A stretch of 39,044 nucleotides of DNA. Source: Propionispora vibrioides. Lineage in GTDB: Bacteria; Bacillota; Negativicutes; Propionisporales; Propionisporaceae. Both the position numbers and the translations under genes were made by a program. This document shows, one piece after another, positions 13,444 to 38,803 of this stretch. The stretch spans positions 1 to 39,044 of the forward strand of contig NZ_FODY01000032.1 of assembly GCF_900110485.1 (NCBI RefSeq), written 5' to 3'. The notes below the pieces were generated by a model. The model was not told where the DNA came from and ran no database searches. It saw only the letters and a program-made list of their open reading frames with translations. Positions within the stretch are counted from its first letter, which is position 1. Each line of letters opens with the position of its first letter.

Positions 13444-15153
13444 TTACACCTTAAATTTGTGAACCGCGCCTTGCAATTTCTCAGCCATAATAGACAGTTC
13501 CTGGCTAGAAGACGAGATTTCCTCTATAGAAGCGGAATGTTCCTCTATGGCCGACGAAACTGTTTGCGTCCGGTTTGCCGACTTTTTGCCTATATCATCA
13601 ATGTTGCGCATGGCCGTCACAATTTGCTGACTGCCGGCCGATAACTGCTGTATGGCCGAAGAAATTTCCATCACTTGCGACGATACGTCATCAATAAGCG
13701 AGACGATTTCTTTAAAGCCCTTCCCGGCGTTAACCACTACCTCCGCCCCGGTTTTTACCTGCTGGCTGCCCTCGTTCATGGCTGTAACCGCCCGGCTGGT
13801 TTCGGCCTGTACTTCACCAATCATACCAGCAATCTGACTCGCTGCCTCCTGAGACTGTTCCGCCAGTTTACGCACTTCCTCGGCGACCACGGCAAAGCCT
13901 CGTCCCTGTTCTCCCGCACGGGCCGCCTCAATGGCTGCGTTGAGTGCCAATAGGTTGGTCTGGCTGGCAATGCCGGAAATCGTATCGACAATCTGCCCTA
14001 TTTCTTTTGAGCGTTCGCCAAGCTTTTCTACGGCCTGCGCTGAAGCTCCCACCGTTTCTTCAATACTTTCCATTTGAGCCGATACCAAATCTGCCGATTG
14101 GGAACCTGCCGTCGCAGCTTCAGCGGTTTTCGAGGCCGCTCCGCTTACCGTATTGGCATTGCCGGCTATTTGCTCAATAGCCGTCGACATCTGCATGACA
14201 ATGTTAGTAGCTTCCTCAATGGCATTTGACTGTTCTTGCGCTCCTTGCGCAACTTCCGCAATAGTAACTGTGACATCTTCCGTTGCCTGAGCAGCCTGAT
14301 CGGTGCCAGCCGTCAATTCTTCCGAAGCTGCCGCCAACTGCTCGGCAGTCTGCGTAATATTAACTACCAAATTACGCAAGTGCCCTGCCATAACATTGAC
14401 TTCCTTGCTAAGCTGACCGACTTCATCTTCATAGACTGCCGTTGCCTGCCTATCGGCAAGATTTCCGGCCGCCAGCTGCTTCACCTGTGAAACCATCTGG
14501 TTTAACGGGACAGCAATCAAACGGGAAATCAGCCAACCCATTCCCAAAGCCAGGAGAACCGTCACTAACGTTGCAGCCAGGCCAAGACGGTCGTTGTACA
14601 CCGCAAGAGCATTATTGGCCGTTTTTTCCTCTGCTGCGATCTTCGAGTTATGTTCAACCAGTTCATCCAGCAACTTATTTAAGCTCTCCAAGTGGCCTGC
14701 GGCGTTTTGCGTAAAATACGCATAACCTTCCGCCTGTCTTCCTGCCATTGCCAGATCCAGCGCCTTTTGCCATTCACCCCGGTAGGCTTTCATTTCCTCC
14801 ATTACCTGAGGCAACGCCTGGGCCTCATAAGAGTCCAGCTTTGCCTGGGAATAATCGCCAAGCAGGCTTTCGACTTTGGCCTTATGCTCACCGATCTCCT
14901 TTAACAGCACCGCTTGCTTGGATTTATCCTGACTGAGGAAAATCGCTAAGGTGAGATTTTCATTAATTCTGCTTTCTGCTCGCACCGAGTTTAGCCACTG
15001 AATCGGCAGCAAGCGATTGTTATACATATCATTAAGGCTGGCGGCCATGTTCGTTGTTGCATAATGACCTAAGTAGCCGACAATAAGCAAAGAAAGTGTC
15101 ATGAGAATAATTAAACTAAGAATTTTTACAGATGTTTTAAGATTTCGTAACAT
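13444..15153 (-). CDS. Methyl-accepting chemotaxis protein co-transcribed with a TetR regulator
   Basis: 569 residues. Membrane helix ~12-32, four-helix-bundle sensor (~33-185), second helix ~190-212 ([19 protein letters not shown]), HAMP ([17 protein letters not shown]), then the cytoplasmic signalling coil with [16 protein letters not shown] and [18 protein letters not shown]. It ends [11 protein letters not shown], without a CheR-tether peptide. GGGGAGAG lies before the ATG. The TetR gene ends 29 bases upstream with no terminator between, so both probably share the TetR-controlled promoter at 15872-15900, and receptor level would then depend on the TetR ligand. Confidence 0.94.
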
Positions 15154-15182
15154 CTTAATCTCTCCCCTGCTATAAGCAATGT

Positions 15183-15782
15183 TTATGTTGCCTTGATTGA
15201 CTTAATGATCAACTCCATCATGGCTTGGGCACCTTCGACGATGTCTTCAATTGCTTTTTCAAGCGTAAGAAACGGGACCAAATACTCGGTAAATGCTTCT
15301 CTCACCAGCCTGGCGGTCAAGGGAATATCGTCAATCTCAAATGTACCATCCTGGACCCCTTGCGTAAGAATCTCTTCAATAACGGCAATCACCTTTAATT
15401 TTACCGTCTTTCCCAAATCTGTCGGCTTAAATCCTATGTGTCGGAAATTTTTTATTTCCTTAACAAATTCAGTAAACGCCCGGTCTCTCTGCATTTTCAG
15501 ATTGACCGCCCGTACGAACCCGATCATGAATCGGCGGAGCCGCATTTCCGGAGGCGCCTGGCAAGACACAGATAACTCTTTCAATAGCTGGTCCATCTCT
15601 TGCTGGGCCCGCTCAAGCAAGGCGTCAATTAAGGCTTCTTTGTTGGCGAACTCATTATAAATTGTTCCCACACTACACCCTACTTCGCGTGCAATATCGC
15701 GCATAGTTGTTCTATTTATGCCGTGATCTGCAACAATCCGCATGAAAGCATCCAAAATCTGATCCCGTCTCTGACCAGTCAC
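15183..15782 (-). CDS. TetR/AcrR-family repressor
   Basis: 199 residues. The N-terminal TetR helix-turn-helix spans ~5-55: [17 protein letters not shown], then [21 protein letters not shown] with the usual [10 protein letters not shown] after it. The rest is an all-helical ligand-binding and dimer domain with no family-specific motif that I recognise. Translation starts at GTG behind GGGGGA. A palindromic operator overlaps its own transcription start, so autorepression is likely, with the downstream chemoreceptor as co-regulated gene. Confidence 0.9.
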
Positions 15783-15845
15783 TTTTCGTCCCCCTTTTAT
15801 TATAGACAGGAAGCACCAGATGACTGTCTATATCCGTTTTAAACA

Positions 15846-15872
15846 TTTGAACGTTTTGTTTATTCGTTCAAA
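15846..15872 (-). promoter_or_regulatory. Palindromic operator for the TetR-type repressor
   Basis: TTTGAACG (15846-15853) and CGTTCAAA (15865-15872) are exact inverted repeats separated by 11 bp. The dyad starts at the -10 box and covers the expected transcription start, the classic position for repression by a TetR dimer. Confidence 0.7.
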
Positions 15873-15900
15873 TTATACTGCAATTTCTTTTGTTATGCAA
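15872..15900 (-). promoter_or_regulatory. Promoter of the TetR-chemoreceptor operon
   Basis: On the minus strand TTGCAT (15900-15895), exactly 17 bp, then a perfect TATAAT (15877-15872). The last base of the -10 box is shared with the operator dyad. Confidence 0.7.
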
Positions 15901-15947
15901 TATTTTCCATGTAGATTTTTATTTATAGTCCTATCATATTTACTATT

Positions 15948-15991
15948 GAAAAAACACTCCATCCAAGGCACCAGCCTCAGATGAAGTGTTT
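15948..15991 (-). terminator. Terminator of the third chemoreceptor gene
   Basis: On the minus strand AAACACT-CATC-GAGGC pairs, with three small mismatches, with GCCT-GATG-AGTGTTTTTT, ending in a six-T run. It begins ~50 bases past the chemoreceptor stop. Confidence 0.7.
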
Positions 15992-16039
15992 ATAGTTTAT
16001 ATTAGAGGAAGCCTGATCAGCAAACTGATCTCGATTGCT

Positions 16040-17767
16040 TTATACCCGGAAAACATTAATTGCGGCTTGAAGTTCCTCAGCCATTTTAGAAAGACTCCGG
16101 CTGGTTGCGGCAATTTCCTGCATGGATGCCGTTTGTTCTTCTGTCGCTGCCGAAACATTGTGCGTTTGGGAAGCAGTCTCCTGCGTTATTTCCTCAATGC
16201 CTTTAACGGCCGTGACAATATCCCGGCTGGCACCGGAAATTTGATTAGCGGCAGAAGAAATTTCTTCAACCTGGGCAGTAACCACCTCGACCATTTGGAC
16301 AATATGATTGAAAGCGCCACCAGCCTCATTGACGATTTTCACGCCGCTTCTGACTTCATCCGTACCAGCCGTCATGGCGGTTACCGCATATTCGGTTTCC
16401 TGCTGTATTTCGGTAATCAAGGTGCCAATCTGTTGGGCCGCCTGATCAGATTGCTCTGCCAAGTGACGTACTTCGTCCGCCACCACAGCAAACCCCCGCC
16501 CCTGCTCACCGGCCCGTGCCGCTTCAATGGCAGCATTCAAGGCTAACAGATTGGTCTGACCGGCAATGCCGGAAATCGTTCCGACAATTTGCCCGATTTC
16601 CTGAGAACGCTCGCCCAGTCTGCTGATAACTTGAGCCAAATTGTTAATCGTAGTTTCCACACTGGTCATCTGCGTTTCAGCCGAATGAATGAACTTGCCG
16701 CCTGCATCGGCCGCAGTAGCTGTCTTGACTGAGGTACTGGCCACCAATTGGGCATTTTGAGCTACGGCATCGGCTTCGGCTGCGGATTGCTCTACCACAG
16801 CTAACGTATTTTGCACGGAGGCCGTCTGTCTCTCTGTACCGGCGGCTACATCCACAATAGACTTTGCTACCTGCGTTGCAGTCTGGGTAGACTCCTCAGA
16901 ACTTGCACTTAATTGTTCCGAAGCTGCCGAAAGCTGCTCCGCCTTGGATTGTACATCAACGATAAGATTCTTTAGATTCTCCTTCATACGAAGCAGCGCT
17001 TTCGCCAGAAAACCAAACTCATCGGAACGCACGGTAAGATTGGCAACCCAATTTCCAGCAAAGTCTCCTTTGGCCATAGTCGTCAGTTCATTAACTACTA
17101 ATTTAATCGGAGCGGTAATCTGTCTGGTAAGGAAAATACTCAGACTAATCCCCACAATGAGGGCAATAACCCCGATTACCGTAGCGATGATGAGATTGCG
17201 GGACAAACTTCCGTTTGCCTCTTCAACATTTTTCTGGGCTAACTGGGAATTTTCCTCTACTGCGGTATGCAGTGATTTTTGGATAGACTGGGCAAAAGGC
17301 GTCAACTCTTTAGTTACATCCCCGGCTATTTTCCCTTTGGCATTAGCCAGCTCCACATTACCCGCCTGCTTAGCCTGATACTGTTCCCTAAGTGCCGGAA
17401 TCAACTGCCCAACCACGCCGCTTTTGTATTTTTCAGTATCATTGATTAACTGCTCGACGTCTTTTACCTGATCTCCTGTTGTTAGTGCCTGTAATTCTTT
17501 TTCCAGCTTGTCCACTGCTGTCAATTTATCCTCAAAGTTCTTGCTGTACTGTTCGTTTCCATCAGCAATATACCGCCTGATTTCTAAAACAGCACCTGTA
17601 TATTCATTTTCCGCTTTGGCGGCAATAATAGCCCGGGCATTACTAGTTTGGATTTGATGGACATTATTTTTACTTTCGTTGGAGGACCAGAAGAAGTATA
17701 CATTTACCGCCAGCATTAATAATAAAATCGCCGTGAGTGATGAGATAACTTTTTGCTTGATTGTCAT
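16040..17767 (-). CDS. Methyl-accepting chemotaxis protein, third of the cluster
   Basis: 575 residues from the ATG at 17767, which has AGGGGGAA six bases upstream; the longer frame from 17830 lacks a ribosome site. Membrane helix ~7-30 ([21 protein letters not shown]), four-helix-bundle sensor, second helix ~185-208 ([22 protein letters not shown]), HAMP, then the signalling coil with [20 protein letters not shown] and a [14 protein letters not shown] variant of the usual segment. C-terminus [10 protein letters not shown]. It stands alone, with a terminator behind it and no regulator gene beside it. Confidence 0.93.
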
Positions 17768-17992
17768 AACTTTCCCCCTGTTTGTTCGTTTATGCGAAAC
17801 CGGCTCTATATGTCTTACACCCGTAGCCAACCCATAAAGCTGACTTTACCTGATAATCGAGTGCCTTCTTATAGAGCAAGGTCACCACAGATTATTTAGG
17901 GGCATCTCGTATTACGACAAAATATTATAAAATCCTCCAAAAAAGCGCATTTCTCTCATTTTTACTCCTGTTTTGCATTCTTCAGCAAATAG

Positions 17993-18013
17993 AAAAAGAG
18001 CCTTTCGGCTCTT
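17993..18013 (-). terminator. Terminator of the bacteriohemerythrin gene
   Basis: On the minus strand AAGAGCC, a 4-base GAAA loop, GGCTCTT and a T5 run. It lies 18 bases past the stop. The rest of 17768-18030 contains a TATAAT near 17925-17930 but no convincing paired -35 box. Confidence 0.75.
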
Positions 18014-18030
18014 GTAAAGCTATAAAAAGA

Positions 18031-18429
18031 TTACATTTCAGCTAGTAATTTGTCCTCTTTTAGGATATGGGTTATAAGCCAATCACACACAAAATACAAT
18101 ATCTCGTTAAGATATTTGTTTTGTTCATTATCAATCTTGGAATAATCAACTGCGTTAATCTTTTCTATAAAATCCTGATGCATCACTTTATGAGAAAAAA
18201 ACTTTTTATAACCGTTCTTCAGCATGTAGTCTTCTTCCATCTTGAAATGGTAAATCGTATATTCTTTTAATTCCGTTATTATTGCCACGATACCATCATA
18301 CTTGTCGGTAATAAATTCGTCACACAGTAATTCTTGTATGCGATTCACAATTTCAAATAACTTCATATGTTGTTTATCGACCTCAGGAATACCAATACTG
18401 TATTCGTCTTTCCACTTTGCAATTGCCAT
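18031..18429 (-). CDS. Bacteriohemerythrin
   Basis: 132 residues, a single-domain hemerythrin that binds O2 at a non-heme di-iron site. All seven ligands are seen: His21 (DKQH), His61, Glu65 (YHFKMEED), His80 and His84 (SHKVMHQDF), His121 and Asp126 (THILKED). The conserved opening W-x-EYSIGIPEVDKQH is present. AAAGGAGGAG lies 8 bases before the ATG at 18429; the ATG at 18456 is upstream of that site and is rejected. In anaerobes and microaerophiles such proteins store, deliver or sense oxygen; three neighbouring chemoreceptors make a redox-taxis link conceivable but unproven. Positions 18430-18690 show no gene. Confidence 0.93.
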   Translation of the reverse strand: MAIAKWKDEYSIGIPEVDKQHMKLFEIVNRIQELLCDEFITDKYDGIVAIITELKEYTIYHFKMEEDYMLKNGYKKFFSHKVMHQDFIEKINAVDYSKIDNEQNKYLNEILYFVCDWLITHILKEDKLLAEM

Positions 18430-18690
18430 AACCGCCACTCCTCCTTTTTTCAACATTTCGCGACAAATTCCACATATCCTTCTTGATAAAAAGCAACGTT
18501 TACCAATACTTACAGAATTATTCCATACAGGTTTCTTTCATCGTTACGCTGCTATTTATCACGACGCCACATCTTACAAACTATATATCAGTTTGATGAC
18601 CCTCCCCGCAAGAAAACCTTTTTTCCTGCCGTTACTGTGACTGTGATTTCCGGGCTTCTTGCAGCTTAGATCTATCACCCATTCAAGGCA

Positions 18691-18727
18691 ATAAAAAAGA
18701 AAGCTTTTACCCGACAGGTAAAAGCTC
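18691..18727 (-). terminator. Terminator of the galactitol-type PTS operon
   Basis: AGCTTTTACC (18702-18711) and GGTAAAAGCT (18717-18726) form a perfect 10-bp stem with a 5-base loop. On the minus strand it is followed by TTCTTTTTTATT. It lies 15 bases past the stop of the last operon gene. Confidence 0.85.
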
Positions 18728-18741
18728 TTTGCCTAGCTACA

Positions 18742-19371
18742 TTAATCTTCCATTAGTTTACGAATTCTTCCGGCTTCTTCCATAGGATTTTCAGATTTCA
18801 AGATTCCGCCTCCAACAATTAAAATATCCGGCTGCCGGGCTATATACTGGCCAACCGTTTTGCTATTGATACCACCGGCCACCGCAACCTGACAAGACTT
18901 CACATGTTTTTGGATTTCAATCAAATCATCCAGCGGAGTCCTTCCCATGGCCTGTTGATCCACCCCGGTGTGTACAGCAATGACATCTACGCCCAGCGCT
19001 TCTATAACCGGAACCCGTGCAGCCAAATCGGGGATGCAAATCATATCCACCATGACCTTTTTTCCATATTTTTTTGCTTCATTCACACACTCTTTTATTG
19101 TTAAATCATCCGTGACGCCTAAAACCGTTACATATTCCGCACCAACCTCATAGGCCAATCGCGCCTCATAAGCCCCTGCATCCATGATTTTTGCATCGCA
19201 TAGAATTTTCAGTTCAGGAAATTTTTTGTGAATCTGTCTGATGGCATCCCTTCCGGCGTCTATAAGAAGCGGGGTCCCCACTTCAACAATGTCAACATAA
19301 GGAGCTAACGTCTCCAGTGCTGTTAGCGCTTCTTCCACATTAAGCTCATCGATAGCCAATTGTAACTTCAT
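18742..19371 (-). CDS. hxlA: 3-hexulose-6-phosphate synthase (OMPDC superfamily)
   Basis: 209 residues, the full length of HPS, which condenses formaldehyde with ribulose 5-phosphate to D-arabino-3-hexulose 6-phosphate or does the reverse. The Asp-Lys-Asp active-site motif is DAKIMDAGAYEA; also conserved are the QLAIDELN start, VEVGTP, VDMICI, VHTGVDQQ and VAGGIN. This pattern is closer to HPS than to the related 3-keto-L-gulonate-6-phosphate decarboxylase (UlaD). GAGGGGA precedes the ATG. It is the last gene of a PTS polyol operon, and no 6-phospho-3-hexuloisomerase (HxlB) lies beside it, which is unusual. It may work in the cleavage direction or on a different ketose phosphate. Confidence 0.85.
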   Translation of the reverse strand: MKLQLAIDELNVEEALTALETLAPYVDIVEVGTPLLIDAGRDAIRQIHKKFPELKILCDAKIMDAGAYEARLAYEVGAEYVTVLGVTDDLTIKECVNEAKKYGKKVMVDMICIPDLAARVPVIEALGVDVIAVHTGVDQQAMGRTPLDDLIEIQKHVKSCQVAVAGGINSKTVGQYIARQPDILIVGGGILKSENPMEEAGRIRKLMED

Positions 19372-19416
19372 ATTCTTCCCCTCTCAAATAAATTTGTACG
19401 GTACTTTCCATTTCGA

Positions 19417-20463
19417 TTACGGATGAAGGATGACTTTGCCAAACAGTTCCTTTCTTTCCATCAACTTTTCAAAAACCTCCGGACCTTTGCTTAAAGGCAA
19501 CCGGTGCGTGATGATCTCCTCGGTGTTAATCTTTCCTTCGGCAAAAAAATGAACGCTATCAGACCATTCTTTACCGGGAAAGGGTGCCGAAACATTACTC
19601 CACGATCCCCAAACCGTTAATTCACTTCTTAATATTTTTTCAAAATAATATCGCTTCACCGTAACATCACCATAAGGAATACCTAAGAAAACAACGCCGC
19701 CACCCTTTTTAGCATAGGCAAATACCTGGGATGCCGTTATGGGAGATCCTGCGGCCTCAATGACGAGATCTGCTTTTAATCCTTCGGAATGCTGTAAAAT
19801 AACCGCTTCCGTATCTTCCTGTAAAGAATTGATAATTACATCTGCCCCAAGTCTTTTTGCTATCGCCAGTTTGGCATCGTCAATATCAATGGCTATTACT
19901 TTTTTAGCTCCAAAAACCTTAACCCATTGAATGGCAAGTAACCCTAACGATCCACCGGCTCCAACTACCGCAACGGTATCACCCACCGACAGGGAAGTTC
20001 TATATAATCCATGAAGAACTACAGTGGAAGGCTCCATCAAAGCTGCCGCATCAAACGAAAGGGTATCAGGAATCGGCACAAGGTTTTGCGAAGGCAGGCA
20101 GATATATTCCGCAAAGGCACCTGGACGTTTTGCACCAATAGCAGTATTAAAGTCGCTCCGGTTATATTCCCCTTTTTTATAATAGTAGTCTTCTCCGTCA
20201 AAGACAACCGGGCAACCGGCCACTCTGTCGCCCTTGGCAACGTTGGTAACTGCGATACCTGCCTCAACCACTTCTCCGGAAAATTCATGGCCCCAAATCA
20301 TTCCCGGAATATAAGGGCCTAACAGCTTATATCTGGATATATCCGAGCCGCATATCCCTGCTGCCTTAACTTTTACAATAACATCATTCGCACTCTGAAT
20401 GACCGGATTTTCAGCTTGTTCAAACCGGATATCCCGAACCCCGTACAGTTTTAAAGCATCCAT
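19417..20463 (-). CDS. Zinc-type polyol-phosphate dehydrogenase (GatD-like)
   Basis: 348 residues of the medium-chain dehydrogenase family, most like galactitol-1-phosphate 5-dehydrogenase. Catalytic zinc ligands are Cys38 (GICGSD), His59-Glu60 (GHEFSG) and probably Glu144 (MEPSTV). The NAD(P) motif GAGGSLG is at 168-174. The LTVWGSWSNVSAPFPGKEW segment near the C-terminus is shared with GatD. The structural-zinc lobe (about 82-103) keeps one Cys (Cys84) of the usual four, so that zinc should be absent. It probably oxidises the polyol phosphate delivered by the adjoining PTS to a ketose phosphate. GGGGTGA lies before the ATG, 11 bases after the epimerase. Confidence 0.87.
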   Translation of the reverse strand: MDALKLYGVRDIRFEQAENPVIQSANDVIVKVKAAGICGSDISRYKLLGPYIPGMIWGHEFSGEVVEAGIAVTNVAKGDRVAGCPVVFDGEDYYYKKGEYNRSDFNTAIGAKRPGAFAEYICLPSQNLVPIPDTLSFDAAALMEPSTVVLHGLYRTSLSVGDTVAVVGAGGSLGLLAIQWVKVFGAKKVIAIDIDDAKLAIAKRLGADVIINSLQEDTEAVILQHSEGLKADLVIEAAGSPITASQVFAYAKKGGGVVFLGIPYGDVTVKRYYFEKILRSELTVWGSWSNVSAPFPGKEWSDSVHFFAEGKINTEEIITHRLPLSKGPEVFEKLMERKELFGKVILHP

Positions 20464-20474
20464 AGTATCACCCC

Positions 20475-21125
20475 TTATAATCTGTTAAGTGCATCTTGCA
20501 ATGTGGACATATTTTTCTGCTTATCTCCTTCAAATAAATAGCTGCCCACCACGAACATAGACGCACCTGCATCAAATGCTTTTTTTATTCTTTGCGGATT
20601 CATCCGCCCGTCAATCTCAATGGCAATATTACGATCAGCAATAATATCGCTTGTTTCTTTGATTTTCTGATAAATAGTATTAATAAACTCCTGATTCCAA
20701 TGTCCCGGATTAATCGACATAAGCAAAACGAAATCTATCTCTTCAACCAGGTATTTTAAAACTTCAGGCGAAGTTCCCGGATTAAGGGCAATGCCGGCTT
20801 TAACTCCCCGTTTTCTGATACTTTTCACCACTTCATGAATATGCTGTGTTGCTTCATAATGAACGGAAATTAAGTCTGCTCCGGCATCTATCACCCTGTC
20901 AATGATCCGTTCCGGTTTATTAACCATCAGATGAACGTCCAGGCTCAGGGAAGTATTCTTTTTGATTTTTGCAATTTGATCAGGGCCAAATGCGATATTC
21001 GGCACATAATTTCCGTCCATCATATCCACATGTAAAACTTCTATATGATTATTTTCTAAAAAGGTTATATCGCCAATCAGATTTACTATATCCGCATTAA
21101 AAATAGAAGGAATTATCTTTGCCAT
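20475..21125 (-). CDS. Ribulose-phosphate 3-epimerase-like enzyme
   Basis: 216 residues, a TIM-barrel of the Rpe/AlsE family that inverts C3 of a ketose phosphate. Conserved: PSIFNAD near the N-terminus, VLHVDMMDGNYVPNIAFGP (metal ligands His and Asp, general acid/base Asp), DVHLMV (His) and EIDGRM (Asp). The phosphate loop, usually NPGFGGQ, reads NPGHWNQ, and the C-terminal FVVGSYLFEGD replaces the usual GSAIF. These differences suggest a substrate other than ribulose 5-phosphate, for example a ketohexose phosphate as in AlsE. GGAG lies before the ATG. An intercistronic region of 138 bases separates it from the EIIC gene. Confidence 0.82.
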   Translation of the reverse strand: MAKIIPSIFNADIVNLIGDITFLENNHIEVLHVDMMDGNYVPNIAFGPDQIAKIKKNTSLSLDVHLMVNKPERIIDRVIDAGADLISVHYEATQHIHEVVKSIRKRGVKAGIALNPGTSPEVLKYLVEEIDFVLLMSINPGHWNQEFINTIYQKIKETSDIIADRNIAIEIDGRMNPQRIKKAFDAGASMFVVGSYLFEGDKQKNMSTLQDALNRL

Positions 21126-21151
21126 ATCCTTGTCTCCTGTTTAAATTTAAT

Positions 21152-21247
21152 CAGGTATGCATCTGCCTTGCTTATTAATTGAAAATATGAAATTTTCAAT
21201 TTTTACGGGTTGCATTTTTATAGTCGGCATACCTGTTTACGGTATGC
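21152..21247 (-). promoter_or_regulatory. Structured intercistronic RNA with alternative pairings between EIIC and epimerase genes
   Basis: In minus-strand order: A = GCATACC (21247-21241), B = CAGGTATGC (21235-21227), C = GCATACCTG (21160-21152). B can pair with A (7-bp stem, 7-base loop) or with C (9-bp stem), but not both. Inside the B:C loop lies a 10-bp hairpin AATTGAAAAT/ATTTTCAATT (21177-21201). C ends ~26 bases before the epimerase start. The layout resembles an attenuator or processing site; it matches no riboswitch class that I know. Confidence 0.45.
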
Positions 21248-21263
21248 ATTCAACCGGCTGCCA

Positions 21264-22520
21264 TCAATGAAGAACCGAACTAAACCAGTAGATAATTACA
21301 CCCCAAATAGGTGAACCCACCGATACATCTGTGCCCAATCCGGTAATACTTAACCCGGCCGCTTTCAACATCGCCGTAGCTCCGGGTGCGACATAGGCGC
21401 AGGTATACATGGAGATAACGCAATAGGTAAGTGTCGAAATGACCGATCTAACCAAATTACCATTGCTGGCAAGAGTACAAACCACGGCAAAGTAGCAAAC
21501 GGAGGTCAACATGCCTACCGGGAAAAACTGAACCCCCGGCAGAATCAGCGCAAACAAAATGACAAACGGTATCGTAATAACTGTTGTTGTAATGGTGGTA
21601 GGATCACCCAAACCAAGCGCCACGTCCATACCAATAGTTAATTCTTTTTCCTTATCCAGCTTTTTCTTCATAAAACTATTAGCTGCTTTGCCAACAGGAG
21701 ACAGGCCTTCCATCATGATGCTAACCATCTTGGGCATCAAAAGCATGACCCCGGCAACACCGATCCCCATGGTGACAACACCGGAAAAGCCCTGTTTTGT
21801 CAATACACCGAGTAAGCCGCCAACAAATAGTCCGATAATAATAGGATCACCGATAATTCCCAATCTTTTATTTACGTTCTCTATACTCAAGTCCACTTTA
21901 TTCAACCCTGGTATTAAATCAATAATCTTATTAATAAGCAAGGCTACCGGAAATGTCCACGCAATTAAATTAACGGTTGTGCAGGTAGTCCCTTCAAGTC
22001 CGAAATATCTTTGCCAGACAGGAGCTAATTTATCGCCCACAAACAACGCAATCACCGACATCAAAATAGTAACCAAAAAGCCCGCTATAGCACTATTAAA
22101 CAACACATAAGTTAAGAAGCCCGGAATCAGAAAGTGCATGTAGTTCCATATATCAATATTCATGGTTTTTACTGCCCCGAATTTAATAAGTGCCAAATTA
22201 ATAAACAGGCCCACCGGAATTGCCAGCGCAGCAAAAGGAGCCATCCAGGAAGCGGCACCGACTGCTGCCCAGCCGATATCAACAATGGTATACCCCGATC
22301 CCAGTTTCTGATAATACGCAACAGCCGGTTCTAACGTAGTCGTTAATAAAGTTACAATTAATCCTAACCCCAGGAACCCTAACCCAACCGTTAAACCTGA
22401 TTTAACTGCATCACTTAATTTCATTCTGAAAAACAGGCCTAATCCGCAGATGATAATTGGTAAAATAGCCTTAGCACCTAGCCCTAGAATTTGCTGAATA
22501 CCTGCCAATAGTGTCTCCAA
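21264..22520 (-). CDS. gatC: PTS galactitol-family EIIC
   Basis: 418 residues, an integral membrane PTS permease of the GatC type with ten or more hydrophobic spans. Diagnostic stretches are the N-terminal LGAKAILPIIICGLGLFFRMK, the GDPTTITTTVITIP loop and the DVSVGSPIWGVIIYW end. Translation starts at TTG with GGAGAGGG six bases upstream; no ATG is available there. EIIB lies 78 bases upstream on the same transcript. The family covers galactitol and several other polyols and pentitols, so the symbol states the family and not a proven substrate. Confidence 0.92.
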   Translation of the reverse strand: METLLAGIQQILGLGAKAILPIIICGLGLFFRMKLSDAVKSGLTVGLGFLGLGLIVTLLTTTLEPAVAYYQKLGSGYTIVDIGWAAVGAASWMAPFAALAIPVGLFINLALIKFGAVKTMNIDIWNYMHFLIPGFLTYVLFNSAIAGFLVTILMSVIALFVGDKLAPVWQRYFGLEGTTCTTVNLIAWTFPVALLINKIIDLIPGLNKVDLSIENVNKRLGIIGDPIIIGLFVGGLLGVLTKQGFSGVVTMGIGVAGVMLLMPKMVSIMMEGLSPVGKAANSFMKKKLDKEKELTIGMDVALGLGDPTTITTTVITIPFVILFALILPGVQFFPVGMLTSVCYFAVVCTLASNGNLVRSVISTLTYCVISMYTCAYVAPGATAMLKAAGLSITGLGTDVSVGSPIWGVIIYWFSSVLH

Positions 22521-22598
22521 AATAATCCCTCTCCTTTGTTTTATTTTTATATGATAAAAGTAAAGTAAGAATCCGGAAAATCGTATAGGCGCAAGTTT

Positions 22599-22898
22599 TT
22601 ACAACCGTTCATAAATATCCGAAATCATTTTCCCTACCTTTTCTCTCAAAGCATCCTCATTAATCCCTGTAATAAAACCAGTGAGACTCATATGGGGCAA
22701 TTCAGTTTTTCCCGTATAATTATTGGTTGTAAAAATAATATCCACACTTTTTTCGAAAGAAGCGATTTCGGTCATGCTGCACTTAACAATCTCATAGGCA
22801 ATCTTTAACTCCCGGCAGATCTCTTTTACTGCATCAGCCGCAATCGTGGATGTGGCAATCCCGCTGCCACAGGCAATCAAAATTTTAATTTTAGCCAT
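22599..22898 (-). CDS. gatB: PTS galactitol-family EIIB
   Basis: About 99 residues, a cytoplasmic EIIB-Gat domain. The phosphorylated Cys lies in ILIACGSGIATST, near residue 10, as in GatB and SgaB/UlaB proteins; TTNNYTG occupies the usual mid-domain loop. Four in-frame ATGs lie within 18 bases (22916, 22907, 22904, 22898). I favour 22898 because it begins at MAKIKILIACG, the normal family start, with AAAAGG upstream; 22916 is the alternative. It comes 26 bases after EIIA. Confidence 0.88.
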   Translation of the reverse strand: MAKIKILIACGSGIATSTIAADAVKEICRELKIAYEIVKCSMTEIASFEKSVDIIFTTNNYTGKTELPHMSLTGFITGINEDALREKVGKMISDIYERL

Positions 22899-22924
22899 TT
22901 TCATCATCCTTTTCATTATATTTT

Positions 22925-23404
22925 TTATTTGACATTCTCGGACAAAGGCTGAGTTTTTGTTAATAAACCGGCAATTTGATCAGGCGATGAAGTTTTTTTC
23001 ATTTCTAAAATCAAATGTTTATTTTGAATAATCGTAATCACTTCCTTTAAGACTTTTAAATGGTCCTGATCATTGTTCATTCCTAAAAAAAACACATATT
23101 CCACCGGTAACTCTATCTGAGGATCATCCATTTTATTCATCGTAACAGGCTTTTCCAGAACAACGACACTAATAAATTCCTTTCTTATATTCCCGCATTC
23201 ACTGTGAGGTATGGCTACGTAATAGTCTTCCATATCCAAACCTGTAGGAAATTTAATTTCCCGCGCGATGAGACTTTCATAATATGTCTCCGTAACAAAA
23301 TTCTTATTGTACAAACTTTGCGCTACTGTTTTAAATAGATCTTCTTTGTCTGCAAATGATTTATTTACCCAGATAAGCTCCGGATAAACATATCGATTAA
23401 TCAT
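22925..23404 (-). CDS. PTS fructose/galactitol-type EIIA
   Basis: 159 residues, a single EIIA domain of the PTS_EIIA_2 (fructose/mannitol/galactitol) family. The active His lies in VAIPHSECG, and EREI-like REIKFPTGL before it is the conserved substrate-proximal loop. AAGGAG lies well placed before the ATG. It is the first structural gene after the PRD activator and accepts phosphate from HPr for the EIIB/EIIC pair downstream. The 129-base gap upstream probably carries the operon promoter, although I could not fix -35/-10 boxes there. Confidence 0.9.
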   Translation of the reverse strand: MINRYVYPELIWVNKSFADKEDLFKTVAQSLYNKNFVTETYYESLIAREIKFPTGLDMEDYYVAIPHSECGNIRKEFISVVVLEKPVTMNKMDDPQIELPVEYVFFLGMNNDQDHLKVLKEVITIIQNKHLILEMKKTSSPDQIAGLLTKTQPLSENVK

Positions 23405-23533
23405 AATAGATGATCTCCTTTTTCTTTTGTAATTTATCTATAAGGTTTTCTAGTACTCTGTCATTGGATAAGGTTTGCAAGAATGTTTAAGTGCCTCAGC
23501 GTACTAGCCTCACAAGATTGCCAAAATACCTGT

Positions 23534-25453
23534 CTAAACCATGAATTTTTCAGCTAATTTTTTGGTGAAATGATAATAAGACGGATCTTTTAATATGGCT
23601 TGTACCCCGTTTTCCTTAACCAAAAATTTAACCAACTTAGGAAAGAATATATCCCATACTTCAAAGAATTCTTTTGCCACATTGATCAGCAATACGATCT
23701 GCACACGCTTTTCATTCCAAATAATCGGCTCTTTTAATATTAAAACCGGGATAATAGTTTTATTCAGATCATTATGCAAAGAATGAGGAATTGCCAGTAA
23801 ATTACTTAATTCCGTAGAACACAGTTGTTCCCGTTCTTTGACGGAAGCTTTTCCTATCTCATTCATCATTCCTTTTTGCACCATTTGATCGGTCATGAAT
23901 TCTAAAACGTCCCATTTATTGGTAAAATCCATTTGTGGATAAAAAAACTCTTTACGGAAAAGCTCCAGAATCAGATCATTATGAAAAGCTTCCCTGTCCA
24001 AGACCTTTTTCTCAATTAAAGCGATTTCATCCATGTTTAACAAAGATTTAAGGTTTATTATTTTGTCTGATTTTATTTGCGGAAAAGGAATTGTCGTTAA
24101 AACCAGATCCACAGAGTTTATTACAGCTTCCGTTAATTTATAACCCGGTATGGTATCTATCACTTGTATCCGGTCTTTAAAATACTCTTGAATTCGTGCT
24201 TTCACTAACACTGACGTGCCAATACCCGTTCCACAGACAAGAACTGCCTTTTTTGCAGCAACATAATGAGCATCCCCTCTTCGGCTAAGACCGGCGCCAA
24301 AATGTATGGCAATGTACCCAATTTCATTTTCATTGACTTTAATATTTCTTTCCTGTTCAATCACCTTTGCTGCGATAGCCGCAATTTGAAAAGCAAGGGG
24401 ATATTCTTTTTTTATTACATCCAACGCTTCATTACGAATATTCATGTGATTCTGCAAGCGTTTTATAGCAATATCAAGATGCAGGGAAAGCCAATGAATC
24501 AAGGTTTCATCCTGGGAAAAATTAATACCGCAGATTGTATTGACCGTATTCATTATTTTTTGAACCAACTGCTCCAAATTCATATCCAACTGAACAGTTT
24601 CAAGCTCAAAGTATTTTTTACTGGTAATAATATGTTGTGCCAGATAGCACGTTTCATTTAGGTCAATATGCACCTCAAAATGCCGGTTAATTTCCCGGAC
24701 AATATACTGCGCAACCTGAAACTCTTTAGTTGAAGCAATCTGCTTCAGTTGCTCTTCTTCATAATGAATCAGTTGTCCAGCCCCGGCACGTTTTATTAAA
24801 ATTGCAATATGGATTAATAAATTATCAATAGACAAATCTGTCAAGCCCAGCATATTGTGATCAAGCGCTTGCATTACAATATGCTTCATTCCGGCTATAT
24901 CGATATGAGTAAAGATAGTCTGATAATATTGCTGCAAGCCGTCTTTATATTTTGTAGAAATATATTCGGAAATGGCATAGCGAATTTGCTGTTCATTCCC
25001 ACAGATTTTCATGCCGCGATTTTTATAATTAACAATCTTCAACTGATATTTATATAAATACTTTTCCACATCTTTAAGATGGCTTTTTAAAGTAGAAAGA
25101 CTGATATACAGCTTCTCCGACAGTTCCATTTGCGAAATACAAGTGTCATGCAAACTGTTAAGGATGAGTTGTTCTAACATGTAAAATATAATTTGTTCGC
25201 TTTCGTTCTTTTGATCTAGTTGCTTTCTTATTACACCAAACTTTTTTTCATCTAACACTTCTAACGAATAGCCGTTTTTAACTGAGGAATGTAATATGCA
25301 GCCGTTAAGTTCCATATTGGCCTGAATATATTTAATATCCCGTCTGATTGTGCGTTCGGAAACACCAATGAGCTTTGCCAGTTCATTCCCTGACAACCCC
25401 TGATTATGTTCTAATAATAAGGATATAATCTGCGAGTCTCTTGCCTGTAACAT
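23534..25453 (-). CDS. PRD-containing transcriptional activator (MtlR/LicR type)
   Basis: 639 residues. An N-terminal DeoR-type helix-turn-helix (ELAKLIGVSERTIRRDIKYIQ) and a second HTH (~100-160) come first. Then PRD1 with His215 and His274, PRD2 with His325 and His384, an EIIB-Gat-like domain with Cys407 (VLVCGTGIGTS), and an EIIA domain with His557 (LLAIPHSLHND). This is the MtlR/LicR/ManR-type activator layout, in which HPr and the EII proteins phosphorylate several of these residues to tie activity to sugar flow. It is the obvious regulator of the galactitol-type operon 129 bases downstream. AGAGG lies 8 bases before the ATG at 25453; GTG at 25462 and ATG at 25459 lie too close to it. 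Confidence 0.92.
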   Translation of the reverse strand: MLQARDSQIISLLLEHNQGLSGNELAKLIGVSERTIRRDIKYIQANMELNGCILHSSVKNGYSLEVLDEKKFGVIRKQLDQKNESEQIIFYMLEQLILNSLHDTCISQMELSEKLYISLSTLKSHLKDVEKYLYKYQLKIVNYKNRGMKICGNEQQIRYAISEYISTKYKDGLQQYYQTIFTHIDIAGMKHIVMQALDHNMLGLTDLSIDNLLIHIAILIKRAGAGQLIHYEEEQLKQIASTKEFQVAQYIVREINRHFEVHIDLNETCYLAQHIITSKKYFELETVQLDMNLEQLVQKIMNTVNTICGINFSQDETLIHWLSLHLDIAIKRLQNHMNIRNEALDVIKKEYPLAFQIAAIAAKVIEQERNIKVNENEIGYIAIHFGAGLSRRGDAHYVAAKKAVLVCGTGIGTSVLVKARIQEYFKDRIQVIDTIPGYKLTEAVINSVDLVLTTIPFPQIKSDKIINLKSLLNMDEIALIEKKVLDREAFHNDLILELFRKEFFYPQMDFTNKWDVLEFMTDQMVQKGMMNEIGKASVKEREQLCSTELSNLLAIPHSLHNDLNKTIIPVLILKEPIIWNEKRVQIVLLINVAKEFFEVWDIFFPKLVKFLVKENGVQAILKDPSYYHFTKKLAEKFMV

Positions 25454-25502
25454 ATCCATCACCTCTAAATTAATTTAATTGTAGCAACAGAGTATTAAGC
25501 AG

Positions 25503-25546
25503 CATAGCCATAATATGTCCGGCAAAGCGGACATATTATGGCTATG
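25503..25546. repeat. 19-bp perfect inverted repeat upstream of the PRD activator
   Basis: CATAGCCATAATATGTCCG (25503-25521) and its exact complement (25528-25546) flank a 6-base GCAAAG. Neither strand has a T-tract after it. It lies 50 bases upstream of the activator start and 90 bases past the antiporter stop, so it may be an operator, a weak terminator or an mRNA end structure. Confidence 0.6.
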
Positions 25547-25636
25547 TGTTATTAACTCTTAAATTAGAATGGGTTAGTATTTCTGTAGATTTGCCGAAAA
25601 CCAATGCCGGGCCGCAAACCCGCGCATTCCCCCGGG

Positions 25637-27655
25637 TTACTCAACATATTCATACAGCACAACACTTTCGATATGATTGACAAATCTTCTTAGCTCTTTT
25701 GCCTGTTGCTTGGTAATCTCCCCATCCTCAAACATTTTGATGATTTCCGAGCGTTCTATGTCGATGACCATCATGCGAAGGTCTTCTTTTTGCTGTTTTT
25801 TCTCTTCGCTGTTTGGTCTAACCGGCTTCTCCAGTCGCTCAATCATTCGTCGATAATCCATCTTGACCGGATAAACCATATGGGCCCGGTCATGTTCCTG
25901 GGCATACCGCTCCAAAAAATCATACGTGGCCTGCAGCGCCTTTAGCTGGATATCATCGCTGATACGAACTTTAGCGGCAGCCAAAGCCCCGGCTTTTTTA
26001 CCGGAACCTCCCCTGTAACGCTTCCAGTTTCTGATCATCCTGCCAATGAGATACATGACTCCGGAGTTTACATTGGCCGAGAGAGCTTCTTCCCGGCGGT
26101 CAAGCGATTTTTCAAAAGACGCAAACACCGCTTCACTCATCTCACCCCTGGCCATGACAGCCTGTATATATTCCCTTTCTTTTTTTAGTGCCATCAGCCG
26201 TATTTCGGATATCTTTATGTCCTGCGGCATCGGTTCCGTCTGGAGATGCCGGAGCCTGATCTTATATTCATCAATCAGTTCATAAGCGGCAAACCGATTT
26301 TCCTCATTCATTTCCAGTCGAATCTGTTTAATCGCTTCCAGCAGAATTTTTCTTTTCGCTTCGTCTAACTCCATTTCCTCCCCTGCCTCCGTTGTACCGG
26401 CTTCTCTTTTGCTCAACACCGGCAAAAACAGGGTTGCCACGATTAAAGTGAACAAAATGACGCCGGCTGCGAGAAAAAGAATAAGCGACCGCTGCGGAAA
26501 TTGATCGCCATTCGCTAAAAAGTAGGGTATGGAAAGAACGCCTGCCATCGTAACGGCGCCCCGGACTCCGGTCAGACTGATCATCAGATTCGTCTGGAAA
26601 TCGGGCTTAACCACATCTTTCGTCTTACTGCCATAATAATAATCAACATAAAAAAAGAGGTAGGACCAGATAAAACGGATACCTAGGATAACCGCTCCGA
26701 TTACGGCAGCATAGCCGATGAGCAGGTAGTTGTTTATACTCGGATCTGCCACGGCTTCCGCCATGGAGGAAGGAATGTTTAATCCCAATAACAGGAATAC
26801 CACCCCATTTAGCACAAACAAAACGATGGACCAGATGTTTTCTGTCAGTATCTGCTCTTCGGCGATCATGGTTTCCGTCCGTTCTCTCACCAGGGCATGA
26901 ACAATCCCGGCTGCAACCACACCGATAACGCCGGAAGCGTGCAAAACATCTTCCGTAATAAGATAGACGGCAAATGGGGTCAGTATCTGCAGCAGCGAAT
27001 GAAAGGTTACGTCGGCAATGCCTTGTCGGCGCAGCGCAAACCGCAGCCAGGTTACCAGAAAACCCAGTATCAGACCGGCTATCGCCCCGGCCAGGAATTT
27101 ATAGGAGAAATCCATAATTGCCTCGTTCAGTAAAAAATAGCCTGTTACGACTGCCGTGATTGCGTAATTGAAGGCAACCAGGCCCGAGGCATCATTGATT
27201 AAAGATTCCCCCCGTACGAGTGACAATACTTTCTGGGGAATGTGAATCCTTTTGGCGATTCCGTTCACGGCCACAGGGTCTGTAGGTGATAAAATAGCCG
27301 CCAGGGCAAAGGCCGCCGTTAGCGGAAGACCGGGTATCATCCAGTGAATAAAATAGCCGCCGCCTAACGTTGTTACAATAACCAGAATAATAGCATTGCC
27401 CAGGATCGGCAGGCGCATTTCCCACAATTCCTCCCGGGGAAAACGACTTCCGTCATTGTACAACAGCGGCGCGACAAACAGCAGCAAAAACCATCCCGTT
27501 TCTATTTTAAATGAAATATCCTTAATGATAACGGCAAGCACGATGCCCATGGCGATTTGCGTAAGTGCTGTCGGCACCGACGGAACATAATGGCTGACGA
27601 CATTGGAAAATAGCAGACAGAAAAGCAGCAGCAATATGATGATTAATATATCCAT
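25637..27655 (-). CDS. CPA1-family Na+/H+ antiporter (NhaP/YjcE type)
   Basis: 672 residues. The first ~415 form a 12-span CPA1 membrane domain with the expected motifs: SPTDPVAVNGIAKRI, then the ion-binding RGESLINDASGLVAFN, and the late ISLTGVRGAVTMAG. The C-terminal ~250 residues are a charged, largely helical cytoplasmic tail, as in YjcE-like members. It exchanges Na+ (or K+) for H+ at the cell membrane. The ATG at 27655 has GGAG six bases upstream; the frame from 27718 adds a non-membrane stretch without a usable ribosome site. It is monocistronic by appearance. Confidence 0.92.
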   Translation of the reverse strand: MDILIIILLLLFCLLFSNVVSHYVPSVPTALTQIAMGIVLAVIIKDISFKIETGWFLLLFVAPLLYNDGSRFPREELWEMRLPILGNAIILVIVTTLGGGYFIHWMIPGLPLTAAFALAAILSPTDPVAVNGIAKRIHIPQKVLSLVRGESLINDASGLVAFNYAITAVVTGYFLLNEAIMDFSYKFLAGAIAGLILGFLVTWLRFALRRQGIADVTFHSLLQILTPFAVYLITEDVLHASGVIGVVAAGIVHALVRERTETMIAEEQILTENIWSIVLFVLNGVVFLLLGLNIPSSMAEAVADPSINNYLLIGYAAVIGAVILGIRFIWSYLFFYVDYYYGSKTKDVVKPDFQTNLMISLTGVRGAVTMAGVLSIPYFLANGDQFPQRSLILFLAAGVILFTLIVATLFLPVLSKREAGTTEAGEEMELDEAKRKILLEAIKQIRLEMNEENRFAAYELIDEYKIRLRHLQTEPMPQDIKISEIRLMALKKEREYIQAVMARGEMSEAVFASFEKSLDRREEALSANVNSGVMYLIGRMIRNWKRYRGGSGKKAGALAAAKVRISDDIQLKALQATYDFLERYAQEHDRAHMVYPVKMDYRRMIERLEKPVRPNSEEKKQQKEDLRMMVIDIERSEIIKMFEDGEITKQQAKELRRFVNHIESVVLYEYVE

Positions 27656-27878
27656 TTCATTCTCCATTCCTAATATACCGGGGACAGCCCAGCGGTCCGG
27701 GCCGTTCCATTGGCTCATCCCTTTTCAATAATGACCGGTTACCATTCTTTTATCTATTATAGCAAAATTCACCACTCCGTCATACATGTCAGATCAAGTC
27801 CTTCCTCCGTTGCATAGTACGCACACTGTTTATGAGATGTATGATAAGAATTAAAATGAAAGCAATATAGCAAAAAGT

Positions 27879-27917
27879 AAAACAGCTATTTAGCACTGAC
27901 GGCTAAATAGCTGTTTT
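27879..27917 (-). terminator. Terminator of the ddl gene (symmetrical)
   Basis: AAAACAGCTATTTAGC (27879-27894) and its exact complement (27902-27917) form a 16-bp stem with a 7-base loop; outer A/T pairs give a T-run on both strands. It lies 35 bases past the ddl stop. Nothing else is seen in 27656-27878 apart from the antiporter's upstream region. Confidence 0.8.
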
Positions 27918-27952
27918 GATTCTTTATAGACTTATCGTTTCATTTTCCATAT

Positions 27953-29050
27953 TTACACCCGGTCGGTCTTGAGTTCCTTTTCATTGGCATGGCGCTCCAG
28001 CGCCAACTGGATCAGGCGGTCGATTAAATCCGGATAGGCTATGCCGCTGATTTCCCACAGTTTGGGATACATGCTGATTTTGGTAAAGCCGGGGATGGTG
28101 TTGATCTCATTAATGACTGCCCGGTTATCTTTGGTCAGGAAAAAGTCCACGCGGGCCATCCCTTCACAGCAGAGAACCTTAAAGGCTTTTACGGCGACGG
28201 TTTGGATCTGCTTAATCACGTCTTCCGGCAGGTTAGCCGGGATTTCCAGAACCGCCCCATTTTCGTCAATGTATTTGGCCTCATACGAGTAGAATTCCTG
28301 CTGAGCTTTGATCTCGCCAACACGGGAAGCAATCGGCGCTTCATTGCCTAATACGGCGCATTCCACTTCCCGGCCTTCAATAAATTCTTCAATCAGTACC
28401 TTGGTGTCATACTGGAAGGCCGCAGCCAGTGCCGCCTGGAACTGTTCTTCGTTTCTTACCTTGCTTACGCCAACCGACGAACCGGCATTGGCCGGCTTGA
28501 TGAACAGCGGCAGGCCCAGTTCACCGCTCACCTGGCTGAATGTTAAGCCTTCCTGGTCCCATTTATGTACGACGATAAACTTGGCGATGGGAATTCCGGC
28601 ATCCCGCAATAGCCGTTTGGCAACATCCTTATCCATGCCGACAGCCGACCCTAAAACCCCGGCCCCAACAAAAGGAATACCGGCCAGCTTCAAAAGCCCC
28701 TGCATGGTGCCGTCTTCGCCGCAGGCTCCGTGCAGTACCGGAAACACAACGTCAATATGGCTTGCCGAACCGCCGCCCAGCGGACTGATGGCCTGCGCTC
28801 CTTCCGCACCGGGCACAAACATCATGTTTATGGACGACTTGTTAAGAGCAATTAGTTTGGGGTCATTTTCATTTAATAAAAAATGCGACCGGTCATTCAA
28901 ATACCAGCGTCCGCTCTTGTCAATGCCAATCAGGGTAACCTCATATTTTTGTTTGTCAATTGCATCAATCACGTTCTTGGCCGACTGCAATGAAACCTCA
29001 TGTTCGGTGGATTTGCCGCCGAATAAGATTCCCACATTAATCTTACGCAA
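27953..29050 (-). CDS. ddl: D-alanine--D-alanine ligase
   Basis: 365 residues, the ATP-grasp enzyme making the D-Ala-D-Ala dipeptide for peptidoglycan. Seen: GGKSTEHEVSLQSA at the N-terminus (active-site Glu and Ser), FPVLHGACGEDGTMQG, the ATP-grasp segment LPLFIKPANAGSSVGVSKV, and ARVDFFLTKDNRAVINEINTIPGFTKISMYP. The omega-loop reads EFYSYEAKY, with the Tyr typical of D-Ala-D-Ala and not D-Ala-D-Lac ligases, so no vancomycin-resistance function is indicated. Translation starts at TTG with AGGAGG seven bases upstream. It is transcribed alone, with a terminator behind it. Confidence 0.96.
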   Translation of the reverse strand: MRKINVGILFGGKSTEHEVSLQSAKNVIDAIDKQKYEVTLIGIDKSGRWYLNDRSHFLLNENDPKLIALNKSSINMMFVPGAEGAQAISPLGGGSASHIDVVFPVLHGACGEDGTMQGLLKLAGIPFVGAGVLGSAVGMDKDVAKRLLRDAGIPIAKFIVVHKWDQEGLTFSQVSGELGLPLFIKPANAGSSVGVSKVRNEEQFQAALAAAFQYDTKVLIEEFIEGREVECAVLGNEAPIASRVGEIKAQQEFYSYEAKYIDENGAVLEIPANLPEDVIKQIQTVAVKAFKVLCCEGMARVDFFLTKDNRAVINEINTIPGFTKISMYPKLWEISGIAYPDLIDRLIQLALERHANEKELKTDRV

Positions 29051-29394
29051 ACCCGCACCTCCTATTACGCAATATCTTTATATTGTACTCCCGTGCAGTA
29101 AAATTTATCCTGCCCGTTCTTTTAGTATATTCCTAAATTAACTGTCTTTGCTAGTCCTTTTATCGTCATTTTTCCCTAAAGCCATAAAGAATTAAGCCAT
29201 TAATTTTTTTAAGGTAAACGCCACAGGCAGCGATCTATGGTGGTTTTTCATGGCATAGGCCTTATACAGGTTTTTTATTTACAAATAATGGATATTGTGC
29301 TACATTAGCATTAATGGAATAATTTGTAAAATAAAATCCTTTCCTTACATCAGTAAATAGCCTGAATTTTAATATCTATGGTTGGAGGATTGAA

Positions 29395-38655: not shown

Positions 38656-38747
38656 CCGTGATTTTAGCAGCCCTGTTACCAATGTACCTTTAGCAAGGAG
38701 AGATGCAGTCGAGTAGAGGCGGAACTCACATTCCAGCCCCCCTCACG

Positions 38748-38780
38748 GAACCGGACTTGCCCTATTAAGGCATCCGGCTC
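38748..38780 (-). ncRNA. Group II intron domain V
   Basis: On the minus strand GAGCCGGATGCC and GGGCAAGTCCGGTTC form the ~33-base catalytic hairpin, with the AGC triad on the 5' side, the two-base bulge region before the distal stem and a TTAATA loop. It lies 23 bases past the maturase stop. Confidence 0.85.
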
Positions 38781-38803
38781 TTCATAGCAGCATTTACTTA
38801 CGT

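Follow-up and report, generated by a model that had tools for sequence, protein, structure and literature searches.

A polyol phosphotransferase operon of Propionispora vibrioides with a terminal 3-hexulose-6-phosphate synthase gene and no adjacent isomerase gene

Analysis of a 39,044-nucleotide stretch of DNA from Propionispora vibrioides (NCBI RefSeq assembly GCF_900110485.1, contig NZ_FODY01000032.1, in the following called the window) revealed a seven-gene operon that is a real, rare, and conserved variant of the operons for polyol uptake via the phosphotransferase system (PTS). It extends on the minus strand from position 25453 to 18742 and encodes, in this order, a PRD regulator, the PTS components EIIA, EIIB, and EIIC (Gat family), an enzyme similar to ribulose-phosphate 3-epimerase (Rpe), a GatD-like dehydrogenase, and a 3-hexulose-6-phosphate synthase (HPS), followed by a terminator. 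As the initial annotation of this DNA had recognized, the HPS gene is not accompanied by hxlB, the gene of its usual isomerase partner, and hxlB was absent from the operon in each of the four genomes in which the operon was found. The conservation of this arrangement in two bacterial families suggests, without proving it, a pathway in which one carbon atom of a sugar alcohol is removed as formaldehyde. The features of the operon are:

23534-25453, minus strand: PRD-type transcriptional activator with HTH (HTH_11), Mga, two PRD, IIB-like, and IIA-like domains
22925-23404, minus strand: PTS EIIA (PF00359)
22599-22898, minus strand: PTS EIIB, Gat family (PF02302); the reading frame extends to 22916
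21264-22520, minus strand: PTS EIIC, Gat family (PF03611, 208 bits), with a TTG start
20475-21125, minus strand: ribulose-phosphate-3-epimerase-like enzyme (TIGR01163), catalytic residues kept, phosphate loops altered
19417-20463, minus strand: GatD-like zinc-family polyol-phosphate dehydrogenase (ADH_N and ADH_zinc_N), without the four structural-zinc cysteines
18742-19371, minus strand: HPS of the HxlA type (TIGR03128, signature residues, tree)
18700-18728, minus strand: terminator-like hairpin with a T-run 3' of the HPS gene, stem of 13 pairs

All seven genes have intact open reading frames (ORFs), which occupy the minus strand from 25462 to 18742, and with the families assigned by NCBIfam and Pfam models they form the single unit of PTS, dehydrogenase, epimerase, and HPS genes with a PRD regulator that had been proposed initially. 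With the ORF starts listed above, the intergenic gaps in operon order are 129 (regulator to EIIA), 8, 78, 138, 11, and 45 bp. The regulator gene has an ATG start at 25453 with AGAGGTGA just ahead, and its ORF reaches back to a GTG at 25462. A comparison with the congener G002 gave dN/dS values of 0.02-0.16 over the operon genes, with 0.16 for HPS, which indicates purifying selection and rules out a chance assembly or decayed genes. The designation of the operon as galactitol-type proved correct at the level of the protein families and not beyond, as all four galactitol models scored under their curated cut-offs (EIIC 297.8 bits against 542, EIIB 63 against 95, EIIA 73 against 139, and GatD, the best NCBI model for the dehydrogenase, 227 against 550). 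Because these scores are so far below the cut-offs, the substrate of the operon cannot be named galactitol. No ORF for a tagatose-6-phosphate kinase or a tagatose-bisphosphate aldolase was present at positions 15000-30000 of the window. RNA-family matches were not found inside the operon; elsewhere in the window, a match to group II introns (Rfam RF00029) with 42.6 bits, against a gathering score of 40, was located at positions 38708-38782.

The terminal protein of the operon is, judged from its sequence, a bona fide HPS and not a decarboxylase. It scored 271.8 bits with TIGR03128 (cut-off 200), whereas the two models for 3-keto-L-gulonate-6-phosphate decarboxylase (KGPDC) gave 85.5 and 110.9 bits, far under their cut-offs of 294 and 250. 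At all 24 positions of the published chemical signature of HPS (Table 1 of PMC5980557) the window protein carries an HPS-compatible residue; the signature residues found are A6, D8, E30, G32, T33, P34, D59, K61, D64, G85, D109, I111, H134, G136, A165, G187, and G188. In particular, D109, A165, G188, and a residue other than arginine at position 137 match the HPS signature (PMC5980557), and the KGPDC marker positions E112, R139, T169, and R192 of UlaD are occupied by D, V, A, and G, respectively. The nearest solved structure was 3F4W, a putative HPS (219.7 bits), followed by the HPS structures 9LJ9 and 3AJX, with decarboxylases reaching at most 74 bits. In a phylogenetic tree with Escherichia coli UlaD as outgroup, the operon HPS was placed deep among HPS proteins paired with hxlB and UlaD was distant. 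The clustering with decarboxylases of the OMPDC superfamily that had been named initially as a counter-indication was thus not seen, and on the basis of model scores, residues, and tree we reject a decarboxylase identity. No residue was found that is common to the operon HPS proteins yet rare in hxlB-paired ones; Val137, at first a candidate for an operon-specific residue, was dropped since it also occurs in hxlB-paired HPS. It therefore seems to be ordinary HPS catalysis that has been kept in the operon.

A comparative search for the same gene set had been proposed with the initial annotation. HPS of this kind was detected in 10 of 380 genomes of the class (E < 1e-20) and in 19 of 398 genomes sampled across the phylum (E < 1e-30); within the latter sample, Rpe-like proteins matching that of the window at E < 1e-60 occurred in no genome beyond its own. 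The operon without hxlB recurred in three further genomes. It is complete in the congener G002 at 94-99% identity, and again complete in G145 and G146, which belong to another family. In these two genomes the six genes other than HPS are orthologous and 68-87% identical to those of the window, and the terminal HPS shares no more than about 51-52% identity with the window HPS and 62% with the HPS type encoded by a second locus of P. vibrioides (C13, see below). In a maximum-likelihood tree, the HPS of the window and those of G145 and G146 fell into different clades, both otherwise composed of hxlB-paired proteins. A tree in which the four operon HPS proteins, a group set by operon context and not taken from the tree, were forced together was rejected (log-likelihood lower by 74, p-AU 4e-109). 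Two HPS clades at the end of an otherwise orthologous operon indicate that one HPS apparently took the place of another in situ, and each time hxlB did not enter with it.

Among HPS genes with at least 40% identity to that of the window and readable flanks, hxlB was located within 1.5 kb for 39 of 39 genes outside the operon and for none of the four operon copies, where the 39 are not independent events, as the genes were gathered by similarity and some stem from one genome. One locus at a contig end, L029:244-5475 of a Deinococcales metagenome-assembled genome, was left out of this count. Its HPS is 42% identical to that of the window and follows a sugar-isomerase-like gene, with no hxlB before the contig end; it could be another HPS of a sugar pathway.

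The statement of the initial annotation that no hxlB is present does not hold genome-wide. The genome of P. vibrioides carries five genes above the cut-off of the hxlB model TIGR03127, all outside the window operon. One of them directly adjoins a second HPS gene in an operon with a mannitol-type PTS, an MtlR-like regulator, and MtlD (C13, L031:5438-12870). Another hxlB-type gene is part of a Gat-PTS operon with an RpiB-like gene and a dehydrogenase 54% identical to that of the window (C3, L032). Two more are found in mannitol-type PTS operons with Rpe-like and MtlD-like genes (C14, L034 and C18, L035), and the fifth is accompanied by a glucose-family PTS gene and a split transketolase (C19, L033). 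Potential partners thus exist elsewhere. Each of the five has its own operon under a different regulator, so there is no sign that any of them is controlled together with the window operon. The relatives of P. vibrioides likewise contain at least one hxlB-type gene each; in G146 a single gene exceeds the cut-off, and it lies in a different Mtl-type operon. With five further sugar or polyol operons containing hxlB-type genes, P. vibrioides seems to rely quite generally on chemistry of the HPS/6-phospho-3-hexuloisomerase type when it uses polyols.

Similar combinations were found in hexitol operons of other lineages. HPS and hxlB are encoded together with MtlD in mannitol-type PTS operons not only at C13, but also in Enterococcus pallens and Catenisphaera. 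In E. pallens (L012:4870-12432), genes for a mannitol-type PTS, MtlD, HPS, HxlB, and an iron alcohol dehydrogenase form one run, and a second HPS-hxlB pair follows a mannose-type PTS. The nearest solved relatives of the iron alcohol dehydrogenase are ADH2 of Zymomonas mobilis and NAD-dependent methanol dehydrogenases. The E. pallens run may possibly include a step from formaldehyde to methanol, a reduction that would take up electrons in the fermentation of hexitols and other reduced substrates; the opposite direction, the use of methanol, is equally allowed by the gene content. Locus C14 of P. vibrioides encodes a 47% identical homolog of this dehydrogenase, unlinked to the operon. A cluster of ptsG, a gene of the glucose-6-phosphate isomerase family, hxlB, and hxlA is present on the Salmonella plasmid pST1030-1B (L119). 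This is a conjugative multiresistance plasmid, and the cluster is flanked by insertion sequences.

The Rpe-like epimerase of the operon scored 224.1 bits with TIGR01163 (cut-off 212.6) and possesses all catalytic residues, with S7, H32, D34, M36, D63, H65, M67, H89, E91, and D172 present; with 169.5 bits it missed the curated cut-off of 271 for AlsE, the D-allulose 6-phosphate 3-epimerase. Its phosphate loops deviate from the standard, with PGHWNQ in place of PGFGGQ and DGR in place of DGG, and they are the same in all four operon copies. A standard Rpe is encoded elsewhere in the genome (C12), so the operon epimerase is probably not a spare Rpe. As the C12 enzyme and the Rpe of a related Listeria operon have standard loops, the altered loops suggest that its substrate is probably something other than a plain pentulose 5-phosphate. 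Several epimerase specificities appear to coexist in this genome, as paired Rpe-like genes with two loop types (DGG and DGN) are present at C3:92599-93912 (L114) and C2:268194-269929 (L113), with an RpiB-like gene between the two at C2. Another Rpe-like subfamily, with DGR and ISPGYAG loops (L034:6362-8851, L035:7224-10491, L012:13500-14754, and L115:6264-7554), always has a divergent hxlB-type gene directly after it.

The four structural-zinc cysteines present in its relatives are missing from the dehydrogenase. Within the class, members of its subfamily, with more than 50% mutual identity, are encoded in some ten Gat-PTS operons, in the company of varying sets of Rpe-like, RpiB-like, hxlB-type, and split transketolase genes. 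In all operon copies examined, three derived traits occur together, namely the terminal HPS, the dehydrogenase without structural-zinc cysteines, and the epimerase with PGHWNQ and DGR loops. The closest dehydrogenase found outside the class, with 65% identity, is encoded in a Listeria operon (NZ_CP095725.1) with rpe directly before its gene. This operon, which we take to be the second one of the pentitol type in Listeria, of unsettled substrate, is the one to which the dehydrogenase and epimerase of the window come closest. The two operons share the adjacent rpe and dehydrogenase genes, Gat-type EIIB and EIIC, and a PRD regulator. The Listeria operon differs in harboring genes for RpiB, a second Rpe, a GutQ-like SIS isomerase, and a fructose-6-phosphate-aldolase-like protein where the window operon has HPS, and in that its own Rpe has standard phosphate loops and its own dehydrogenase keeps the structural-zinc cysteines. 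The pentose-phosphate kit of the Listeria type (RpiB, second Rpe, SIS isomerase, aldolase or transketolase) is not part of the window operon, which contains only one Rpe-like gene and HPS.

With respect to regulation, a repeat search identified one further element about 50 bp before the ATG of the PRD gene:

25503-25546, no strand assigned: perfect inverted repeat with 19-bp arms and a 6-nt center

The fold z-score of this region is -7.8, and no T-run follows the repeat. The core of the repeat is present a single time in each of the four genomes with the operon, always ahead of the regulator gene, and in none of four other genomes searched, which rules out a dispersed repeat as its origin. A comparison of the window with G146 showed two differing positions in the arms, with compensating changes on the opposite arm. 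The stretch between the regulator gene and the EIIA gene is not conserved between the two families. Most simply, the palindrome is a probable operator through which the regulator controls its own operon; the alternative is a hairpin in the mRNA.

From the gene set we infer the substrate, the sites of oxidation and epimerization, and the direction of the pathway. The established reaction of HPS interconverts ribulose 5-phosphate plus formaldehyde and D-arabino-3-hexulose 6-phosphate. Since the enzyme cleaves a 3-ketose, the dehydrogenase must yield a 3-keto sugar and the epimerase must act at C4, not at C3. The initial annotation had proposed a route from polyol phosphate via a keto sugar phosphate and its epimer to cleavage by HPS; it is retained here as the best single reading, although unproven and with the epimerization moved from C3 to C4. 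In this route, the PRD activator would read the state of the PTS and switch on EIIABC, which would import a hexitol as its 6-phosphate. The dehydrogenase would oxidize the third carbon counted inward from the one that carries the phosphate, the position expected for its pentitol-phosphate relatives, and on a hexitol 6-phosphate the product would be a 3-keto-hexulose 6-phosphate. The Rpe-like enzyme would then invert C4, the counterpart of C3 in xylulose and ribulose 5-phosphate, so that D-arabino-3-hexulose 6-phosphate is formed, and HPS would split the bond between C1 and C2, releasing ribulose 5-phosphate and C1 as formaldehyde. The formaldehyde could be disposed of by reduction to methanol or by capture with tetrahydrofolate, for instance. 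HxlB would be dispensable because the 3-ketose arises directly.

Counted from the phosphate, each step in this register is matched by one of the three operon enzymes. The presence of the dehydrogenase subfamily beside HPS or hxlB-type isomerases would also fit a common 3-ketohexose product, as D-arabino-3-hexulose 6-phosphate is the sole ligand common to HPS and HxlB. In favor of the proposal we also count the HPS active site, the recurrence of the seven genes without hxlB in two families, the retention of ordinary HPS activity through a replacement, and the altered epimerase loops; the hexitol operons with HPS, hxlB, and MtlD, including the possible formaldehyde-methanol step of E. pallens, make the cleavage direction conceivable. 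Deduced from configuration, the hexitols that match C2 of the HPS substrate are altritol (talitol), iditol, and mannitol. We regard this sequence of oxidation, C4 epimerization, and HPS cleavage as a tentative proposal with somewhat less than an even chance of being correct; a slightly more doubtful part is that such a route, with a re-specified Rpe-like enzyme, makes formaldehyde a normal product of sugar-alcohol fermentation. Several points weigh against it. The equilibrium of HPS favors synthesis, so cleavage requires a formaldehyde sink, and none is encoded within the operon. We know of no hexitol dehydrogenases that yield 3-ketoses, and the nearest relatives of the dehydrogenase, those of Listeria, look like pentitol genes. 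The altered loops of the epimerase belong to the phosphate side, although an extra carbon would sit on the side of C1. Finally, an hxlB partner of the operon HPS may possibly act in trans.

The main alternative is that a pentitol is imported, that the dehydrogenase and the epimerase form xylulose and ribulose 5-phosphate, and that HPS fixes formaldehyde with part of the latter, with hxlB acting in trans to complete the ribulose monophosphate route to fructose 6-phosphate. The HPS reaction would then run downhill, the genome has hxlB-type genes, and both the Listeria operon, with its Rpe, RpiB, arabinose-5-phosphate-isomerase-like SIS protein, and aldolase, and the other members of the dehydrogenase subfamily, which occur with RpiB, Rpe, and split transketolase, offer the context of a pentose-phosphate kit. 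We nevertheless consider this unlikely, since the operon has neither a formaldehyde source nor HxlR-type control, its regulator being a PTS-type PRD activator, since the epimerase loops are non-standard, and since none of the four operon copies has kept hxlB although nearly all other HPS genes did; the location of the only G146 gene above the hxlB cut-off in a different Mtl-type operon also speaks against it. The missing partner might alternatively reflect nothing but gene placement, if oxidation took place at C2 and epimerization at C3 and the operon fed a shunt between fructose 6-phosphate and ribulose 5-phosphate using hxlB from elsewhere. Such a shunt is in line with the occurrence of HPS and hxlB with PTS, MtlD, or glucose-PTS genes at C13, in E. 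pallens, in Catenisphaera, and on the Salmonella plasmid, and with the hxlB-type genes in P. vibrioides and its relatives. These genes are, however, each located in a separate operon, including the single one of G146, and two distinct HPS lineages entered the operon without their hxlB, so that we give the shunt a distinctly low probability.

A change in the reaction of the terminal enzyme itself is less probable still. HPS enzymes are said to accept other aldehydes, and the register counted from the phosphate would also hold for longer polyols, for example if a 4-keto-heptulose phosphate derived from a heptitol were cleaved to glycolaldehyde and ribulose 5-phosphate. This appears improbable, as no residue separates the operon HPS from ordinary hxlB-paired HPS. 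The idea that the protein is a decarboxylase, or has some other new function within the OMPDC superfamily, would find some support in the promiscuity of KGPDC and HPS, each for the reaction of the other (PMC5980557, references 36 and 37 therein), and in the occurrence of UlaD-type enzymes in PTS operons. With KGPDC scores far under the cut-offs, the Glu, Arg, Thr, and Arg of KGPDC replaced as in HPS, and UlaD as a distant outgroup, a non-HPS function is very improbable.

Among known systems, the only close one found in the literature search was the D-arabitol PTS operon atlABCD of Bacillus methanolicus (PMC6685057), which combines a regulator, Gat-type EIIA, EIIB, and EIIC, and zinc-family polyol-phosphate dehydrogenases in one operon. 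Its last genes encode a second dehydrogenase and an MtnA-like protein, and neither an HPS gene nor an Rpe-like gene is among the genes listed (PMC6685057). The HxlA-HxlB module of the ribulose monophosphate pathway has the HPS family and active site in common with the window operon, which differs by the lack of HxlB and by control through a PTS-type activator. In the ula operon of E. coli for ascorbate uptake by the PTS, an enzyme of the OMPDC superfamily likewise removes one carbon, as CO2, to yield a pentulose 5-phosphate, and an epimerase gene is adjacent; this decarboxylase belongs to a different clade, the substrate is an acid rather than a polyol, and there is no dehydrogenase. The E. 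coli gat genes encode EIIC and dehydrogenase proteins of the same families, but the window proteins score under the galactitol cut-offs and a tagatose-bisphosphate aldolase gene is missing. No account of HPS or HxlB encoded within an operon for polyol uptake by the PTS was found in open-access full text; subscription papers were outside this search, so priority is not established.

If the proposed route is correct, anaerobic bacteria would form formaldehyde in the catabolism of sugar alcohols. HPS, whose cleavage reaction has so far mainly been known as a supply of ribulose 5-phosphate in archaea, would gain a dedicated cleaving role in bacteria, and a widely misannotated group of galactitol-type operons would obtain an assignable pathway. 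Should instead the import of a pentitol and fixation of formaldehyde by HPS be the right explanation, the operon would still connect polyol uptake with one-carbon metabolism in a way that the literature searched does not describe.

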